Translations under genes and position numbers: made by a program | Assembly (NCBI GenBank): GCA_002719675.1 | Contig: PBID01000003.1 | Location: forward strand, 179,948-243,947 | Direction of reading: 5' to 3' | From: Chloroflexota bacterium | GTDB lineage: Bacteria > Chloroflexota > Dehalococcoidia > Lucifugimonadales > GCA-2719675 | Length of the DNA: 64,000 bases | The notes under the pieces: model-generated | The model's input: the letters and a program-made list of their open reading frames with translations, nothing else | What the model was told of the DNA's origin: nothing | Database searches by the model: none | Shown: positions 25,966 to 35,465 of the stretch, one piece after another | Layout: each line of letters begins with the position of its first letter | How positions within the stretch are numbered: position 1 is the stretch's first letter

Positions 25966-26604
25966 TTAGTCGTTAATTGATTGAATATATTTTACCAAAT
26001 CCCAACGCTCTTTTTCAGATAGTAAGTATCTAAAACTAGGCATTGGGGAAGCTGATTCCCTGTTTCGAATATGTGACGAGAACCCTTGTCTGCCACCATA
26101 AGATATGAATGCAAAGACTTCTCCGGGTTTAGCATCTTGAGTTGAAGATTCCAATAAATTGACGGGTAAAGGGCCTTTGTCAATGTACTTTACAATATTT
26201 CCGCTACCATCTAAGTTTTGCCCATGACAAACTAAACAATTAACTCTATATATTTCCTTAACCTGTTCTTCATTATAAGTAGAAAGAAAACGTTGTGGAG
26301 TTGAAAGTCCTTGGTATTCTTCAAGGGAATTGTATGAGAGTTCTTTGCCTGTAATAGGAACAGAATCTCTTGGAGGTAGTAGCCTGGGGCCTTCTTGGGA
26401 CCTGTAAGATTGTTGATAATGCATTTCGCTAAATACCATAACCTTATGCGAACCTGTTTTAGGAATTACTGGTAAATCAAATGACCCTACACCTCGAATA
26501 GTAGTTACACCACTAATATTATTGTAAGAAACACATCCCGTTGCTGAAAATACAGTTAACAGTGTAAATATAAATAAAATTATATGTGTTTTTTTATTCA
26601 TCAT
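25966..26604 (-). CDS. actE: Alternative complex III monoheme cytochrome c subunit ActE-like
   Basis: Lipobox 'TGCVS', 'YRVNCLVCHGQNLDGSG' CxxCH, 'MPSFRYLLSEKERWDLVKYIQ'; position in cluster. Confidence 0.85.
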   Translation of the reverse strand: MMNKKTHIILFIFTLLTVFSATGCVSYNNISGVTTIRGVGSFDLPVIPKTGSHKVMVFSEMHYQQSYRSQEGPRLLPPRDSVPITGKELSYNSLEEYQGLSTPQRFLSTYNEEQVKEIYRVNCLVCHGQNLDGSGNIVKYIDKGPLPVNLLESSTQDAKPGEVFAFISYGGRQGFSSHIRNRESASPMPSFRYLLSEKERWDLVKYIQSIND

Positions 26605-26611
26605 TAATGAA

Positions 26612-27127
26612 TTATTCCCATCCTCTTTTTACTTCTTCGGCACCATTATTTTTTAATACCTCTTCAGCAGTGGACATTTTTTCTGGAGTTGAAGTAATAC
26701 ATATTCCAATATATCCTTCAGTAATTTTTGTATCATACGCGCCCATGAAAAGCCTTGGCAATCTTGATTCAAAAATAATTCCAAAAACTGTGAATAATAT
26801 TGCTCCTAGCATGGTACCTTCATACATTATTATTAGCATAGGAGGGATAGACAATAGAGGCTTACCTCCCGTTATTAAAGGAAAAGCTATTTGATTCCCT
26901 GCAGTTAATAAAAGACCAACTATAAAACCACACATAGCACCAATAATTGGAAATCTATAAAGTTTATGTTTTGGTTCTTCGTCACCGAATGTTCCGTCTG
27001 GGTAAGGAGTACCAGTCAAAATTTCATATTCGGCTGAACTAAATCCTGATTCAGACACTTTGTCCAGCGCGTCTGCAACAGAATCTTCATCTGTAAACAA
27101 GCCTATAACACTTCTTTTGTTAAACAT
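26612..27127 (-). CDS. actD: DUF3341 protein, alternative complex III ActD-like
   Basis: 'VIGLFTDEDSVADALDKVSESGFSSAEYEILTGTPYPDG', two TM segments; position between NrfD and cytochrome genes. Confidence 0.85.
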   Translation of the reverse strand: MFNKRSVIGLFTDEDSVADALDKVSESGFSSAEYEILTGTPYPDGTFGDEEPKHKLYRFPIIGAMCGFIVGLLLTAGNQIAFPLITGGKPLLSIPPMLIIMYEGTMLGAILFTVFGIIFESRLPRLFMGAYDTKITEGYIGICITSTPEKMSTAEEVLKNNGAEEVKRGWE

Positions 27128-27137
27128 AATACAATCC

Positions 27138-28514
27138 TTACTCTCTTATAGAAGCAGGCACTTTAGCCCTGCCAATTTTAATTTCATCTCGTCCAACCAT
27201 ACCTTCTTTGATATCAAATAGTGGAATTAGAGGAAAAACTCTTGCGAATAAAAGCATTCCCATTAAAACCCAAGCAAACGTCATAGCAACCATAAGTATT
27301 TCTACTATACTAGGGGAATAAGTTCCCCAGCTGAACATCAAAGGTTGCTTTCTCATTAAACCAGGAACAATGATTAAGAATCTTTCAAGCCACATACCTA
27401 TATTTACGGATATAGTTGTAATAAACATCCACAAGAAATTTCTTCTTACTTTTTTAAATAACCACAAAGGTACAGGGAAAAGGTAAGCTGTAATAACAAA
27501 CACAATAAATAAAGCACTCCATGGCATTTCAAATACCTGCAGTTGCCTCATTGCGAGTTCTGGGCCTTCTAGAGTGTACAATGCATATACCCATTCAAGG
27601 AAAAAGAAGAAAAACCATGCAGTTGCTACTATAATCAGTAGTCTTCCTATAGCGTCTAAATGGTCAGATGTAATGTATTTATCCCACTTAAATAGCCAGA
27701 CCATAACTACCATTACAGTAGCTACAGCAGAAACACCAGAATGGATTGCGCCTATAATAAAATATGGAGCAAAAATTGTAGAATGCCAAGCTTCAGGTCC
27801 AATTTGAGCAGCGAAGTCCCAAGAAACTATGCTGTGCACAGACACAAAAACAGGCAAAACTAGAGCTGACAATAATATCCCAGCAACAATTTGTAATTTC
27901 CACTGAACAGGTGTTCCTCGCCAGCCTAAAGATAGAAATCCATAAATTTTACTTACGATTCCTTTTGTTCTGTCTCTAATTATTGCTAAATCTGGAATCA
28001 AACAAACAAAAACAAATAAAGTACTAGCAGTTAGATATGTCATTACAGCACTTGGGTCCCAAATAAATGGTGATTTTACATTAATCCAAATACCTCTAGA
28101 AAAGTCATATGGAAATACCCATAGATCAGCTCTCCAAGGTCTCCCGACGTGAACTAAGGGAGCAGCTTGAAGTGCAGCTATTAGAGAAAAAACTGTTAAA
28201 ACTTCAGCAGCTCTAGTGATAGGCCTGCGCCATTCAGCTTGAGTTAATCTTAAAATCGCAGATATCATTATTCCGGCATGGCTAATACCTATCCAGAAAA
28301 CAAAATTCACCATGTAGAATCCCCAAAAAACGGGTCTGTTAAGACCTGTAACGCCAACTCCTTTATTAAGCATATATCCAAATGCTGTCATTCCAGTAAG
28401 ATATACTATCAGGCAAAGTAAAGTAGCTATTGGCCACCATTTTGGAGTTGCAAATATAGAGCTTAGTAGCTCCTTATTAATTTGTTTGTCTGTACGATGA
28501 TGATGTTCTTGCAT
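27138..28514 (-). CDS. actC: NrfD/PsrC-like quinone-interacting membrane subunit, ActC-like
   Basis: 'FWGFYMVNFVFWIGISHAGIMISAILRLTQAEWRRPITRAAEVLT', polytopic. Confidence 0.88.
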   Translation of the reverse strand: MQEHHHRTDKQINKELLSSIFATPKWWPIATLLCLIVYLTGMTAFGYMLNKGVGVTGLNRPVFWGFYMVNFVFWIGISHAGIMISAILRLTQAEWRRPITRAAEVLTVFSLIAALQAAPLVHVGRPWRADLWVFPYDFSRGIWINVKSPFIWDPSAVMTYLTASTLFVFVCLIPDLAIIRDRTKGIVSKIYGFLSLGWRGTPVQWKLQIVAGILLSALVLPVFVSVHSIVSWDFAAQIGPEAWHSTIFAPYFIIGAIHSGVSAVATVMVVMVWLFKWDKYITSDHLDAIGRLLIIVATAWFFFFFLEWVYALYTLEGPELAMRQLQVFEMPWSALFIVFVITAYLFPVPLWLFKKVRRNFLWMFITTISVNIGMWLERFLIIVPGLMRKQPLMFSWGTYSPSIVEILMVAMTFAWVLMGMLLFARVFPLIPLFDIKEGMVGRDEIKIGRAKVPASIRE

Positions 28515-28549
28515 TTTATTTCTTAATAATAATATATATGTTCATTAAT

Positions 28550-29977
28550 TTATTCTGGCTTTCCAAGAACTAAGACTTCAGTTCTATGGAATTTTTTATG
28601 GATTTTATATAACGATAATTCTTTTTGTTGCCAAATGCTAATTACTGGAATCAATTTTGTTAATAATGTGTAAGCTAGTATTATCGCGCTAATTCCACCA
28701 ACAATAATCATGATATCCGGAATGTCAGGCAATATAGTTGCAGGAATATCTGCGAGGTAAATATTATGTTTGTTAGGATGTTCTGTTAATTGGTATGCAG
28801 GCACATAAATTCTAAGTCTATCCAAGAAGCTTCCTATTAGTATAAAAAATGCTATGATAGTTGGTCCCCAAATAGACCTTCTGATTTTGTTGAAAGGCAT
28901 GGTAATTAAGGGCAAAATAAATAACAAAAATGCTGAACCTAGGAAAGGAACAAAATAAGGACCAGTCATTGACAATTCAATAATTGCTTTTTCAGTTGGT
29001 TTAGCGCCATACCAAAATATAATAAAGCTAGAGAAGAAAAACCAAATCCACATCAATGAAAGAGCAAACATTAATTTTCCTAATGCCCAGAATTGGTCAA
29101 ATTCGATAAAATCTTTACAACCACCCCATTTTCTTAATGCGAACATTGCTAAAATTACAGTAGCTACACCTGCTTGAAATGAATTTGCAGCATGTGTTAT
29201 TGGATATAGCGAATCGATCCATCCGGGAATCAAACTCATTGCGAAATCTGAGCTTATTTGAAAGTTTAGAATTACCAGTGTCATAAAATAAAATGCACCT
29301 AATATTCCAATTCTATGCTTTTGGGTGAACCATTGTTTGGAAGTCCCTATCCATCTGTTAGAAAGGATTGAAAAAAGTTTTTTATGATAAGGGTTTTTTG
29401 AGTTTTCTCTTAGGATCGCAAAGTCAGGTACCGTAGATACCCACAGCAAAGCTATTCCAAGCAGAACCAAACATATGAAACTAATTGAAGTTATTATGTG
29501 AGGCATGTGAGAGTGCATTTTAAGTGATTCAAAGAACCATAATGTTCTTCTACCATCACTAAGACTTGGTAAAACACATAGAACAGGGACGAATAAAATT
29601 AGATTAATTAAGCCCAAAGGAGCAAATAATTGAGCAACTTTAGTAATTGATCTATTCCAATGTCCTTTAGCAATAAATGGTGCAATAGCAACCATGGGAG
29701 CAGCCTGAACAGTGGTGAGTATAAAAACTACAAAAGTCACATAATATCCCCACTCAGCAGGGTTATCAAATCCATCAGTGCTGATTTTTACTATTAATCC
29801 AATTAAACCGATAATGGATAGGATAGAAAGCAAAACCAAAAAAATTCTATTTTTATTATACTTAGAAACATGCAACCCAACTAATTTTTCTGTTAAATCA
29901 GTTTGTTTTGAAAATTGTGTTTGTTGATGTGTGTTATGACTAGTGGACATGATTTTCCTGCTTGTTTCCCTTCTCAA
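28550..29977 (-). CDS. Second NrfD-like polytopic membrane subunit (ActF-like?)
   Basis: 'TVQAAPMVAIAPFIAKGHWNRSITKVAQLFAPLG', about 10 hydrophobic segments; 38-bp overlap with the upstream Fe-S gene. Confidence 0.75.
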   Translation of the reverse strand: MRRETSRKIMSTSHNTHQQTQFSKQTDLTEKLVGLHVSKYNKNRIFLVLLSILSIIGLIGLIVKISTDGFDNPAEWGYYVTFVVFILTTVQAAPMVAIAPFIAKGHWNRSITKVAQLFAPLGLINLILFVPVLCVLPSLSDGRRTLWFFESLKMHSHMPHIITSISFICLVLLGIALLWVSTVPDFAILRENSKNPYHKKLFSILSNRWIGTSKQWFTQKHRIGILGAFYFMTLVILNFQISSDFAMSLIPGWIDSLYPITHAANSFQAGVATVILAMFALRKWGGCKDFIEFDQFWALGKLMFALSLMWIWFFFSSFIIFWYGAKPTEKAIIELSMTGPYFVPFLGSAFLLFILPLITMPFNKIRRSIWGPTIIAFFILIGSFLDRLRIYVPAYQLTEHPNKHNIYLADIPATILPDIPDIMIIVGGISAIILAYTLLTKLIPVISIWQQKELSLYKIHKKFHRTEVLVLGKPE

Positions 29978-30662
29978 CTTTTTTAAGATAAATCACATTG
30001 GGTTCTGTTCCTAGTTCTTCTAGCATTTTATAACTACGTTTTTCACCTTTTGATCTAGCTTTGGAGACTTTACTTTCAGGATCATTTAAATTTCCAAACA
30101 CTAACGCATCAGTAGCGCAGGCATTTGTACATGCAGGATTTAAATCTCGTTCGTTTGTTTTTTCTCCAGATTTAGAATTTTTCGATACTCTTCTAATTCT
30201 TTGTATGCAAAAAGTACATTTTTCCATAATTCCACGGCTTCTGACTGTTACATCAGGGTTAAGCTGGTTTTTCAAGCTATCAGGCCATTCTGGTTCCCAG
30301 AAATTAAAGAATCTAACAGTGTATGGACAGTTATTGGCACAAAACCTAGTTCCAATACATCGATTATAAACTTGCACATTTAAACCTTGGTCGTTGTGGT
30401 AAGTTGCTAAAACAGGACAAACTGGTTCGCAAGGAGCTTCATCACAATGTTGGCATAATACGGGAACATATCTAGCTTTCACATTTGGAAATTCACCTTC
30501 CCAGTATCTTTCAATTCTGATCCACTCAATAGCTCTTCTTTGATTGAATATGTCCTCTGTGTTAATAGGTATATTGTTTTCAGATTGGCAAGCAACTACA
30601 CAAGATTGGCACCCTGTACATTTATCTAAATCAACTACCATTCCCCACTTAGTTTCAGCCAT
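29940..30662 (-). CDS. 4Fe-4S ferredoxin-type subunit of alternative complex III (ActB2-like)
   Basis: 'CTGCQSCVVACQSEN', 'CQHCDEAPCEPVCP', 'CIGTRFCANNCPY', 'CTFCIQRI...CTNACATDAL'. Confidence 0.9.
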   Translation of the reverse strand: MAETKWGMVVDLDKCTGCQSCVVACQSENNIPINTEDIFNQRRAIEWIRIERYWEGEFPNVKARYVPVLCQHCDEAPCEPVCPVLATYHNDQGLNVQVYNRCIGTRFCANNCPYTVRFFNFWEPEWPDSLKNQLNPDVTVRSRGIMEKCTFCIQRIRRVSKNSKSGEKTNERDLNPACTNACATDALVFGNLNDPESKVSKARSKGEKRSYKMLEELGTEPNVIYLKKVEKGNKQENHVH

Positions 30663-30706
30663 TTGATTGTTTCTCCATATAGTTAAGTTTATTGCAGAAT
30701 AGTGAA

Positions 30707-32995
30707 TTAATGATGCTCATTTTTTTCTCCATCACCATCAATTTTGATTACTTTGCGCTCAGGATCTCGAGGGAAATCTCCTAATTCATTTTCCATCTGA
30801 GGTAATTTTTTCCAATCTCCAGTTTTAGCGATTTGGACTTTCGTAGCCGACCAAGCTAAAGATCCAGTATTGTCGTCTTTTGAAGGATCAAGTATAGACA
30901 ACACATTAGCACCACGGTTTTTAGCATACCTTCCCATAGAAGTATGCCCTTGTCCAACAGGAACACATACAGTATTTGGAGCTGAGGCAGGATTAGGATA
31001 GGCTATAGCTTCTATGCTTTTCCCAGATTGGTTAGTAATTTTTATTATATCTCCCTCAGTGATGTCTAATTTGTTAGCATCTTTCAGGTTAATTTCAACC
31101 CAAGTAGACCATGTGGCAGTTGAAATGGGGTCAGGAAGAGATTGCATCCATGGCAGGTTAGCTCCTGATCCATCGGATATTCCATTTGAAACAAAAGGAA
31201 TAAGGTGGAAATCATACTCTGCATTATCATTAAAAACAGGTGTTGGTAAGTTTTTAAATTTTGGAGGTTTGTTTATTTTACCTTTAAACATATTTTTGAC
31301 ATCCCACCAGCCACCTCTTTGTAACACACCCACCCAAAATTCTTTATCATTTTGAGCTCTTACAGAACCCCTATTAAGATCAAATAGTTTTTTGGAATCT
31401 TCTTTGACTAAATCTTTGATAGAATCAGAATTAATTTTTATATCTAAATCCATTGTTTTTGAAATCGAAATGAGTGAATCGGAGAAGCTTTTATTACCAT
31501 AATGCTTTCCTTTAGACTCAAAAAATGGCCTTACAACGGGTTGTTGAAAACCTAAAGTTTGATATCCAGGGCCAGGGTCTGGTATATTTGTACCCCATTC
31601 TTCCAAAGGGTCTCCTTGGGGTAAAATAAGGTCTGCCATAGATGTGGTGTCATCCATATGTCCAGAAAAACTGACAATTAGTGGCACAGTATTTTCAGAA
31701 GATAAAATTTCTTTGACTTTTAGGCTTCCAGGTAATCCATAAACAGGATCTATATTTGAAGTTAAGAGGATATTAATTTTACCTTCTCTCATATCAGTTG
31801 TGACTTTTTCCCATTCAGAGAAACTACCAGGAATTTCATTGTTGATTAATTCAGGCATTGCTGGTTTTGGCTGGTATATTACACCGCCTTTTTTGCCGAT
31901 GTTATTTACCAAATAATTTAATGAATAAATAGCTGACAAAGAATCAAAACCATTAGTATGAGATCCAACAGAATCTCCCCCAATAGCTAAACTTGGTGAA
32001 TGTTCTATAAATTCATTAGCAATTTTTACAATTTGATCAGCAGTTAAGTAAGGGCTAATAATATTACATACTTTACCAGGACTATATTCTGACATATCGA
32101 ATCTGCCATTATTTGTTAGGCTTGCTATGTTAGCTTGGTTGCCTAGTTTACGCCGAATGATCACGTATGCTATAGACATAGCAAGGAGGCCTTCAGTGCC
32201 AGGATTTACATAAATCCATTCGTCTGCATTTGCAGCAGTCATGGAATACCTTGAACTAACGTGAATCATTTTGCCACGTACATCACCGCCTTGTCTAAAA
32301 TGACCAAAATCTCTTGAGTATTTAGTTGGAGAAACCCAGCTTTCAAGAAAATCTGCTCCAAAAGAGAGGAGGAATTTTGAATTCTTTATATCAAAATCAG
32401 GAATTTGTGTTTGATTAAATACATGATTGATAGCAGATCTTAAGTTCGTAGATTCTATTGGTTCATATATTAAATTTTTACACCCTAAAGAAGTTGTGAA
32501 ATTGTTAAGGATCATTTGAGAATGACCACTAAGTCTATTGTTTGCCATTAATATGGAAGATTTATCATCAATATTTGAAATTTGTTCCGAAACTCTTGCT
32601 ATAGCATCAGTCCAGCTAATTTGCTCCCATTTCCCTGAACCTCTAGGCCCTATACGTACCAGAGGGCTTGAGATACGGTCAGGATTATATAAGGATTGAA
32701 GTGTAGCTTCAGCTCGAGGGGAGTGTTTTCCTTGATTAATTGGATGATCAATATTTCCTTCAATTTTTTTTGCTCTTCCTTCCATAACTCTGACTACAAC
32801 ACCATCCGTGGCGGGAGTAGTATTTATAGAAGTAGCATACCAATTATCGATACCTGTCACTAAATCTTCTGGCATCTCGAAGGGAGCTTGAATAATTAAT
32901 TCTTTTTCAGGTACACCACAAGCTTGAAAAACTACAGCTCCAATTGCTGTACCTCCAAGTAATCCTAAAAATTTTCGTCTTGATGTAGTCAACAT
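30707..32995 (-). CDS. Molybdopterin-oxidoreductase-like large subunit of alternative complex III (ActB1-like), Tat-exported lipoprotein
   Basis: 'TSRRKFLGLLGGTAIGAVVFQACG' (twin Arg and lipobox), 'GKHSPRAEATLQSLYNPDRI'; no N-terminal CxxC Fe-S motif, as expected for ActB. Confidence 0.88.
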   Translation of the reverse strand: MLTTSRRKFLGLLGGTAIGAVVFQACGVPEKELIIQAPFEMPEDLVTGIDNWYATSINTTPATDGVVVRVMEGRAKKIEGNIDHPINQGKHSPRAEATLQSLYNPDRISSPLVRIGPRGSGKWEQISWTDAIARVSEQISNIDDKSSILMANNRLSGHSQMILNNFTTSLGCKNLIYEPIESTNLRSAINHVFNQTQIPDFDIKNSKFLLSFGADFLESWVSPTKYSRDFGHFRQGGDVRGKMIHVSSRYSMTAANADEWIYVNPGTEGLLAMSIAYVIIRRKLGNQANIASLTNNGRFDMSEYSPGKVCNIISPYLTADQIVKIANEFIEHSPSLAIGGDSVGSHTNGFDSLSAIYSLNYLVNNIGKKGGVIYQPKPAMPELINNEIPGSFSEWEKVTTDMREGKINILLTSNIDPVYGLPGSLKVKEILSSENTVPLIVSFSGHMDDTTSMADLILPQGDPLEEWGTNIPDPGPGYQTLGFQQPVVRPFFESKGKHYGNKSFSDSLISISKTMDLDIKINSDSIKDLVKEDSKKLFDLNRGSVRAQNDKEFWVGVLQRGGWWDVKNMFKGKINKPPKFKNLPTPVFNDNAEYDFHLIPFVSNGISDGSGANLPWMQSLPDPISTATWSTWVEINLKDANKLDITEGDIIKITNQSGKSIEAIAYPNPASAPNTVCVPVGQGHTSMGRYAKNRGANVLSILDPSKDDNTGSLAWSATKVQIAKTGDWKKLPQMENELGDFPRDPERKVIKIDGDGEKNEHH

Positions 32996-33020
32996 TTACC
33001 CTTATTGAATATTAAATTGT

Positions 33021-33629
33021 TTAGTAATGACAGGTTGTGCAATCAGTAGGTCCGTCATTTTTCTTATGGCAATCAACACAATCACCCATTTTTAATTCTC
33101 TAGCTTGTCTAACTTTTTCCATTTCAGCAACATTGCCATGACATATTGAACAAGTTTGAGCGGGTTCCACATTATTTTTTTCAGAAAAATGTTTAACATG
33201 GGCTTCATGTATGAAATGAGCGTGATCTGGAACTCGATGTACTCTTATCCAGTCGATAGTTCCTTTAGACGCATAAATAGATCGTAATTTTTCAATTTCC
33301 TCCAGATCATCCCCCACGCTTTTATGACAGGTCATGCACAGGGTAACCGAAGGCACAGAAGCAGAAGCTTCTGATGTTACAGTTCTATGGCAAAAGGTAC
33401 AGTCAAGGCCTAATTCCTCGACGTGGGTTTTATGAGGAAATTTAATTGGTTGGTCTGGACCTTCGTTAAGACCAAAAACATCTAGTGGTAACCCGAACCA
33501 AGCAGACAGGACAAAAGAAAGTAAAGTTATGGCAACAGTTGCACCAATAAGACCAACAATAGATAGTATTACCAAGTAAATTAGGTTTTTTTTGTTACGT
33601 TTTGGTAGTTGAAAATCTCCAGGAATCAA
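33021..33629 (-). CDS. actA: Pentaheme cytochrome c subunit, ActA-like
   Basis: Five CxxCH motifs: CTFCH, CMTCH, CSICH, CVDCH, CTTCH; N-terminal TM. Confidence 0.88.
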   Translation of the reverse strand: MIPGDFQLPKRNKKNLIYLVILSIVGLIGATVAITLLSFVLSAWFGLPLDVFGLNEGPDQPIKFPHKTHVEELGLDCTFCHRTVTSEASASVPSVTLCMTCHKSVGDDLEEIEKLRSIYASKGTIDWIRVHRVPDHAHFIHEAHVKHFSEKNNVEPAQTCSICHGNVAEMEKVRQARELKMGDCVDCHKKNDGPTDCTTCHY

Positions 33630-33677: not shown

Positions 33678-34013
33678 TTATATCCAAATAGCATCATAAA
33701 TTTCTTTTACTACAGGCAGTGCACTAAAAGCTGTATATAGCAGATAAATTAAAGCCACAAATCCAGCTATACATACTGCATAGCAAGCTTTTTGTATTTT
33801 TAGTAGGAAAGAAACAAACTTAGGGTTTTCTAGTTTTGCTCCGTTGATTATAGACAAAGGGCTGTCTTGAGAATCTATAAGAGAGGGAATAAATATATAC
33901 CCTATAAGCAAATTGGTTGCAATAATAATAACTGCTCCAACAGAATAAAACATAAAATTAACAAATTGACTTATTTGAGCCCAGTGAGTACCGGTAATTG
34001 TGATGGGATCCAT
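33678..34013 (-). CDS. Small membrane protein heading the alternative complex III cluster
   Basis: Two hydrophobic helices, co-directional, about 50 bp upstream of actA-like gene. Confidence 0.6.
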   Translation of the reverse strand: MDPITITGTHWAQISQFVNFMFYSVGAVIIIATNLLIGYIFIPSLIDSQDSPLSIINGAKLENPKFVSFLLKIQKACYAVCIAGFVALIYLLYTAFSALPVVKEIYDAIWI

Positions 34014-34085
34014 TAATTTACCTAGATTGCGTTTTCCTTTAAAAAGTATATGGAAGCTATAGCCATTAACTATCCAACCTGAATA

Positions 34086-34165
34086 ATTCTATAAATATTG
34101 ATTTAATGTGTCAATTGAAATTTTGGTAATTTCAATTGACAAAATTGTATATAAACAAGTATACA
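34086..34165. promoter_or_regulatory. Divergent promoter pair with 14-bp perfect palindrome
   Basis: TGTCAATTGAAATT-TTGGT-AATTTCAATTGACA (34109-34141). Plus strand TTGACA(34136-34141)-N18-TATACA(34160-34165); minus strand TTGACA(34114-34109)-N17-TAGAAT(34091-34086). Confidence 0.65.
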
Positions 34166-34289
34166 CTTCTATTATATTGGGTTTTTATAAATAATTGGCC
34201 TTTCAAGTAGCATTATTTTGAGTAATTAGCAATGTAAATTTGTTTTCAATGATATGGTACAATTCAAACGAAAATTATTAGGTTAAGAC

Positions 34290-35465
34290 ATGAAAGAAGC
34301 TGTAATAGTAAGCGGGGCAAGAACTCCGATAGGAAGATTTGGTGGTTCCTTAAAGGATGTTTCTGCTTCAAAACTGGGAGCTACTGCTATCAAGGGAGCT
34401 CTAAAATTTTCTGGTATCAACAGCGAGGATGTTGATGAAGTTGTTTTTGGAAATTCTATACAAGGGGCTGAAGCTGGATATGCAGCTAGGCTATCTTCAT
34501 TGCTTGCTGGGTTGCCTAAAGAAGTTCCATCGGTCGCAATTAATAAACAATGTGCATCAGGCTTGGAAGCAATCAACATAGCGGCTCAGTTAATAATTTC
34601 TAATCAAGCAGACATAGTAATAGCAGGAGGTACTGAAAGTATGAGTCAGTCTCCATTTGTTAAGACCTATGAATCTAGATTTGGGAGTGAAAGTACAAAT
34701 TCAGATGCTTTGATTAATTCAATTTCTTGTCCAGTTAATCAGTATCATATGGGTGTGACTGCTGAGAATTTAGCATCTAAGTACAAGATTTCAAGAAAAG
34801 CCCAAGATATTTATTCGTTAGAAAGCCAACGCAGGGCAGTTACAGCCATTACAGATTCAAAATTTAAGAAACAAATAGTTGAAGTAAAAATTTCTTCTGA
34901 ATCTGAGGCTGCCTTTGTAAATCAAGATGAATGCCCCAGGCCTGATTCTACTTTAAATAAGTTAAGTAAATTGCCTCCAGTTTTTCAAGAAAATGGAACT
35001 GTAACAGCTGGAAATTCTTCTGTAATAAGTGACGGTGCAGCAGCAGTGGTAATTATGTCATTGGATAAGTGTAAGAGTTTAGGAATTAAACCTAAGCTTA
35101 GGTGGGTTAGTAGAGGAGTTGCAGGTGTTGAACCATCTTTAATGGGGACAGGTCCTGTTCCAGCATTGGGTAAGGCAATTTTGTCAGCTGGGTTAACTTT
35201 GGATGATTTAGATTTGATTGAACTAAACGAAGCATTTGCTTCTCAATCTATTTATTGTATTCAAGAACTAGGATTAGACATGCAAAAAACAAATGTAAAT
35301 GGTAGTGGGATCAGTTTAGGCCATCCAATAGGTGCAACTGGCGCAGTATTAGTAGTTAAATTGATGGAAGAGATGAATTTAAATAATCATTTATTTGGAG
35401 GGGTTTCTTTGTGTGTTGGTGGCGGACAAGGTATAGCAAGTATTTTTGAAAATGTTCAAATTTGA
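34290..35465 (+). CDS. Acetyl-CoA acetyltransferase (thiolase)
   Basis: 'SGARTPIGRFGGSLKD', 'NKQCASGLEAI', 'NVNGSGISLGHPIGATGAVLVVKL', 'CVGGGQGIA'. Confidence 0.95.
   Translation: MKEAVIVSGARTPIGRFGGSLKDVSASKLGATAIKGALKFSGINSEDVDEVVFGNSIQGAEAGYAARLSSLLAGLPKEVPSVAINKQCASGLEAINIAAQLIISNQADIVIAGGTESMSQSPFVKTYESRFGSESTNSDALINSISCPVNQYHMGVTAENLASKYKISRKAQDIYSLESQRRAVTAITDSKFKKQIVEVKISSESEAAFVNQDECPRPDSTLNKLSKLPPVFQENGTVTAGNSSVISDGAAAVVIMSLDKCKSLGIKPKLRWVSRGVAGVEPSLMGTGPVPALGKAILSAGLTLDDLDLIELNEAFASQSIYCIQELGLDMQKTNVNGSGISLGHPIGATGAVLVVKLMEEMNLNNHLFGGVSLCVGGGQGIASIFENVQI

Follow-up and report, generated by a model that had tools for sequence, protein, structure and literature searches.

The window, i.e., the whole stretch of 64,000 nucleotides that was analysed, belongs to the genome of a marine SAR202 group bacterium. 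It carries an operon for alternative complex III (ACIII) on the minus strand and, divergent to it, a thiolase gene on the plus strand. The intergenic gap between them comprises 276 nt with a G+C content of 25% and contains a long palindrome, for which the preliminary description had proposed a role in the joint control of both transcription units. The genes and the features discussed below are:

25966..33629, minus strand: ACIII genes, the part of the operon that follows the 111-aa gene
33678..34013, minus strand: first gene of the ACIII operon, encoding a 111-aa membrane protein without family match
34086..34091, minus strand: predicted ACIII -10 box TAGAAT, N17 spacer
34109..34114, minus strand: predicted ACIII -35 box TTGACA, in the left palindrome arm
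34109-34141, no strand: perfect palindrome of 14-bp arms and a 5-bp spacer, TGTCAATTGAAATT-TTGGT-AATTTCAATTGACA
34136..34141, plus strand: TTGACA in the right palindrome arm, earlier proposed as a -35 box
34146..34165, no strand: small inverted repeat TGTATA-N8-TATACA
34160..34165, plus strand: TATACA, earlier proposed as a -10 box, N18 spacer
34255..34263, plus strand: candidate extended -10 element TGGTACAAT
34290..35465, plus strand: gene for acetyl-CoA C-acyltransferase (thiolase)

The ACIII genes encode an ActA-like multihaem cytochrome, a molybdopterin-family subunit, an Fe-S subunit, two NrfD-like membrane subunits, ActD (PF11821, by Pfam name) and an ActE-like cytochrome c; for the 475-aa NrfD-like subunit no Pfam match was obtained. 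Orthologues of the 111-aa first gene stand before ActA throughout the order. The divergent arrangement of ACIII operon and thiolase is kept in the genus, and the thiolase is directly divergent in another family as well (L068, L072), while three further families have an extra gene between the two.

The location of the palindrome between the two divergent units, with the first-gene ATG at 34013 and the thiolase ATG at 34290, as well as its perfect 14-bp arms with an outward-facing TTGACA in each, were confirmed from the sequence together with all coordinates and spacings. No other perfect dyad in the window is as long, the runner-up having arms of 11 bp. Using a first-order Markov model of intergenic DNA, perfect dyads with arms of at least 14 bp are expected about 0.0002 times per gap of 276 nt and about 0.07 times across all intergenic DNA of the genome, both values being rough as they derive from few hits in simulation. 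The palindrome is real and its origin by chance is unlikely. A function as terminator was ruled out by its position between two divergent gene starts. The search for similar sites, which had been recommended as a check, yielded no second copy with up to three mismatches in the 1.40-Mb genome. A scan with both arms of the 338-kb contig gave no second site above 21/28, a score that is also the maximum of the reversed control, and when this contig and the 210-kb one were scanned with both arms, which as background represent one contig each from the window's genome and that of its sister species, only the palindrome site and its orthologue exceeded the reversed-arm control. The nearest two one-arm matches on contig C3 are both located inside coding sequence.

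The ACIII-side predicted promoter is strongly supported. Compared to the sigma-70 consensus it matches in 6/6 positions of the -35 and 5/6 positions of the -10 box with an N17 spacer, and only three upstream sites on the contig are this good. In the sister species (G001) both boxes and their spacing are identical, the -10 box being part of a 16-nt block, AATTCTATAAATATTG, that is identical as a whole, and the block 34083-34117 is conserved to 83%. Moreover, a signature TTGACAC-N-TGATAnTTTTCAC of SAR202/Dehalococcoidia ACIII operons recurs in 54 other loci, mostly 88-126 nt before the first gene. With the window counted, TTGACA is present in 50/55 ACIII upstream regions compared to about 5 in Markov shuffles, and TTGACA-N14-16-TGATA in 46/55 compared to 0.03 expected. 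The minus-strand promoter TTGACA-N17-TAGAAT of the preliminary description thereby finds its counterpart in the sister species and, for TTGACA, across the order. The order-wide counterpart of the TAGAAT box is TGATAnTTT, TAGAAT being a variant of the window's genus, and the most consistent reading of the order-wide signature is a promoter of the extended -10 type, in which TGATAnTTT follows a spacer of 17-19 bp. This resembles extended -10 promoters (TGnTAnnnT), as does TGGTACAAT before the thiolase; the ACIII promoter of the window, however, has TTATAGAAT, in which the TG is lost, combined with a consensus -35. The exact sequence GTGATAnTTTTCAC occurs in 22/59 genomes of relatives, nearly always once each, and coordinate comparison placed 19 of the 23 exact copies in these 59 relatives directly upstream of ActA. 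A literature search on SAR202 ACIII promoters found no paper; the order-wide signature offers a handle on respiratory gene control in this poorly cultured and abundant deep-ocean group.

In relatives (e.g., L063, L067, L083, L088; copies L197-L219), GTGATAnTTTTCAC places a GTGA-N6-TCAC dyad on the ACIII -10, and this dyad is lost in the window's genus. A reading of the dyad as CRP/FNR site was rejected, since site and protein do not co-occur: HTH_Crp_2 gave no match at E 0.001 in G009, G014, G018, G023, G031, G045, G050 and G052, all of which have the exact site.

For the thiolase, the preliminary description had suggested TTGACA-N18-TATACA on the plus strand as promoter. Neither of these boxes is kept in the sister species, in which the -35 reads TTGGTA and only 2/6 positions (33%) of the -10 are the same, and the TATACA of the window deviates from the consensus in two positions. 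The small inverted repeat overlapping this -10 is present at the position described; as a feature it is not notable, being absent in the sister species, and it is unremarkable because arms of 6 bp are too short in DNA of 75% A+T. The likely thiolase promoter is the predicted element TGGTACAAT at 34255-34263, with a predicted start at about 34270. It is identical to the sister species in 8/9 positions and lies in a block with TGnTACAAT (34250-34281) in which 27/32 positions (84%) are identical. Within the last 110 nt before the thiolase, TGGTACAAT is found in the window and in L072, and TGTTACAAT in L003, which is the locus of the sister species G001, and in L068. Furthermore, TGnTATAAT precedes the intervening gene in two of the three families that have one (L063, L064), and in the third (L067) there is TATAAT without the exact TGn spacing. 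The predicted thiolase promoter is located about 95-130 bp from the palindrome, too far for a dimer bound there to block it through occlusion of its -35. The sequence TACAATTCAAAC (window 34258-34269), which covers the thiolase -10/start region, recurs at G000:C3:329929 in the divergent gap C3:329868-329996, and its first 11 bases end the longest conserved run of that gap.

Comparison to the sister species shows which parts of this eye-catching promoter palindrome are constrained. The gap consists of two conserved islands, the ACIII promoter (83%) and the thiolase-proximal block (84%), and is otherwise poorly conserved, with 40-42% identity both from the first ACIII gene to the first island and from the TATACA at 34160..34165 to the second; among the other syntenic gaps of two contigs it does not belong to the well conserved ones. 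The sister palindrome is TGTCAATTCAAATT-TGGG-AATTTAAATTGGTA, with 11/14 pairs and a spacer of 4 bp compared to 5 bp here. Four arm substitutions separate the two species, of which none is compensated in the opposite arm, and the three differences in the right arm all restore pairing in the window's species, where the within-genus comparison covers one sister species and hence does not distinguish between loss and gain. The left and right arms are identical to 86% and 79%, respectively, compared to about 40% in the flanks. A constraint on the whole palindrome element is possible, because the arms outscore the flanks and the sister copy pairs at 11/14. Outside the genus (48 loci), a single locus reaches 10/14 pairs around the ACIII -35 and the others do not exceed 7, which is the null level. 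As the -35 is conserved across the order while pairing is at the null level, the left half is old, unlike the symmetry. The preliminary description had named lack of conservation in close relatives as the observation that would speak against it: the minus-strand half is kept, the plus-strand half is not.

Long perfect dyads are in general more frequent than expected on this contig. Eight perfect palindromes with arms of at least 12 bp were found on 338 kb compared to 0.9 expected, and 6/8 are inside crude ORF calls, showing that such dyads arise here without being operators. The sister copies of these eight dyads mostly have 7-9 pairs, with one fully kept and two without orthologue match; this decay alone proves nothing because dyads chosen for perfection in one species look worse elsewhere, and what is informative is their overall excess. 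For the intergenic dyad at C3:328403, the differences from the sister copy fall together in a single arm, a pattern expected from template switching. In Escherichia coli, the correction of imperfect inverted repeats by template switching is an established kind of mutation (PMC7202029), and such a quasi-palindrome template switch would account for the three right-arm differences all restoring pairing. The likeness consists in an imperfect sister dyad, a perfect dyad in the window and three clustered differences in one arm; the direction of change is not polarised here, with one sister species and no alignable outgroup. The simplest origin of the palindrome would be quasi-palindrome correction with the left arm as template.

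Taken together, the gap probably contains two separate divergent promoters of housekeeping type, with a palindrome that has grown at the genus level around an old ACIII -35. The ACIII operon would be transcribed with the left-arm TTGACA as -35 and the TAGAAT at 34091-34086 as -10, and the thiolase from the proximal extended -10 at 34255-34263; conservation was observed for both, and use of the boxes is what we infer from it. The right arm would mirror the ACIII -35 in the window's species rather than being an ancestral promoter element, and correction of an inverted repeat (quasi-palindrome), templated by the left arm and acting on the A+T-rich upstream tract, might have created the symmetry. 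The palindrome would then be without operator function. As known for divergent sigma-70-type promoters, two promoters point away from each other and have -35/-10 or extended -10 elements close to the consensus, and nothing essential differs; the two core promoters here do not share the palindrome. More broadly, the palindrome may have arisen as a by-product of mutation or may be an operator local to ACIII, rather than a shared switch.

A local operator would mean that, specifically in this lineage, a dimeric repressor sits on the -35 of the ACIII promoter and controls this promoter only, which we regard as unlikely. A perfect dyad of 33 bp is rare by chance, the two CAATTG centres are spaced by 21 bp, i.e., two helical turns, and the arms are better kept than the flanks with 11/14 pairs in the sister copy. 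However, the genome has no second copy of the dyad, the four arm substitutions are uncompensated and the spacer changes from 5 to 4 between the species, and a fitting regulator was not detected. At E 0.001, TetR_N (PF00440), GntR (PF00392), LysR and HTH_Crp_2 had no match in the genome, which is about 90% complete, the absence of the named families being strong and not final. A MarR-like match to MarR_2 was below the cut-off, and the one Rrf2 protein of the genome adjoins suf-like genes. The palindrome is presumably unlike the sites of IscR and NsrR. The TetR/FadR-type regulator suggested in the preliminary description belongs to families, TetR and FadR/GntR, that were not found in the genome. 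The dyad at a promoter beside an acyl-CoA gene is reminiscent of operators of TetR or FadR/GntR proteins, but it has a 14+5+14 architecture and is not conserved.

It seems quite improbable that the signature TTGACAC-N-GTGATAnTTTTCAC with its GTGA-N6-TCAC has a dedicated regulator and that the genus lost this dyad and gained the larger one over the -35; if true, the replacement of GTGA-N6-TCAC by a new -35 dyad would be a regulatory rewiring of the respiratory chain. It is also very doubtful that the A+T-rich DNA which lies upstream of the ACIII -35 serves RNA polymerase as an UP element and that its symmetry is incidental: a high A+T content and partial conservation are seen in the right arm (79%) and in the adjoining stretch on its far side (58%), yet families with G+C-rich upstream regions have the ACIII promoter without an A+T tract. 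A single dimer that covers the two -35 boxes together and so couples respiration to acyl-CoA metabolism, as first proposed from the outward TTGACA in both arms and their plausible spacing to -10-like hexamers, is most improbable, since the plus-strand boxes are not conserved, a conserved extended -10 lies closer to the thiolase as part of a probable separate promoter, and the palindrome is degraded inside the genus and absent across the order although some families keep the divergent neighbourhood.

Elsewhere on the contig, some stretches are unusually similar between the two species. Seven genes at G000:C3:133481-140456 have 97-99.7% protein identity to the sister species compared to a contig median of 84%, which suggests that this block was recently exchanged between the two lineages. 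At G000:C3:135994-136023, in a crude ORF call, there is a further perfect palindrome (14-bp arms, 2-bp spacer); the sister species has the identical sequence, embedded in a stretch of 98% identity. Similarly, the divergent gaps G000:C3:140457-140616, 303124-303277 and 230863-231046 are 94-97.5% identical between the species, far above the typical value; the first of them adjoins the exchanged block and the last one a gene of 98.9% identity.
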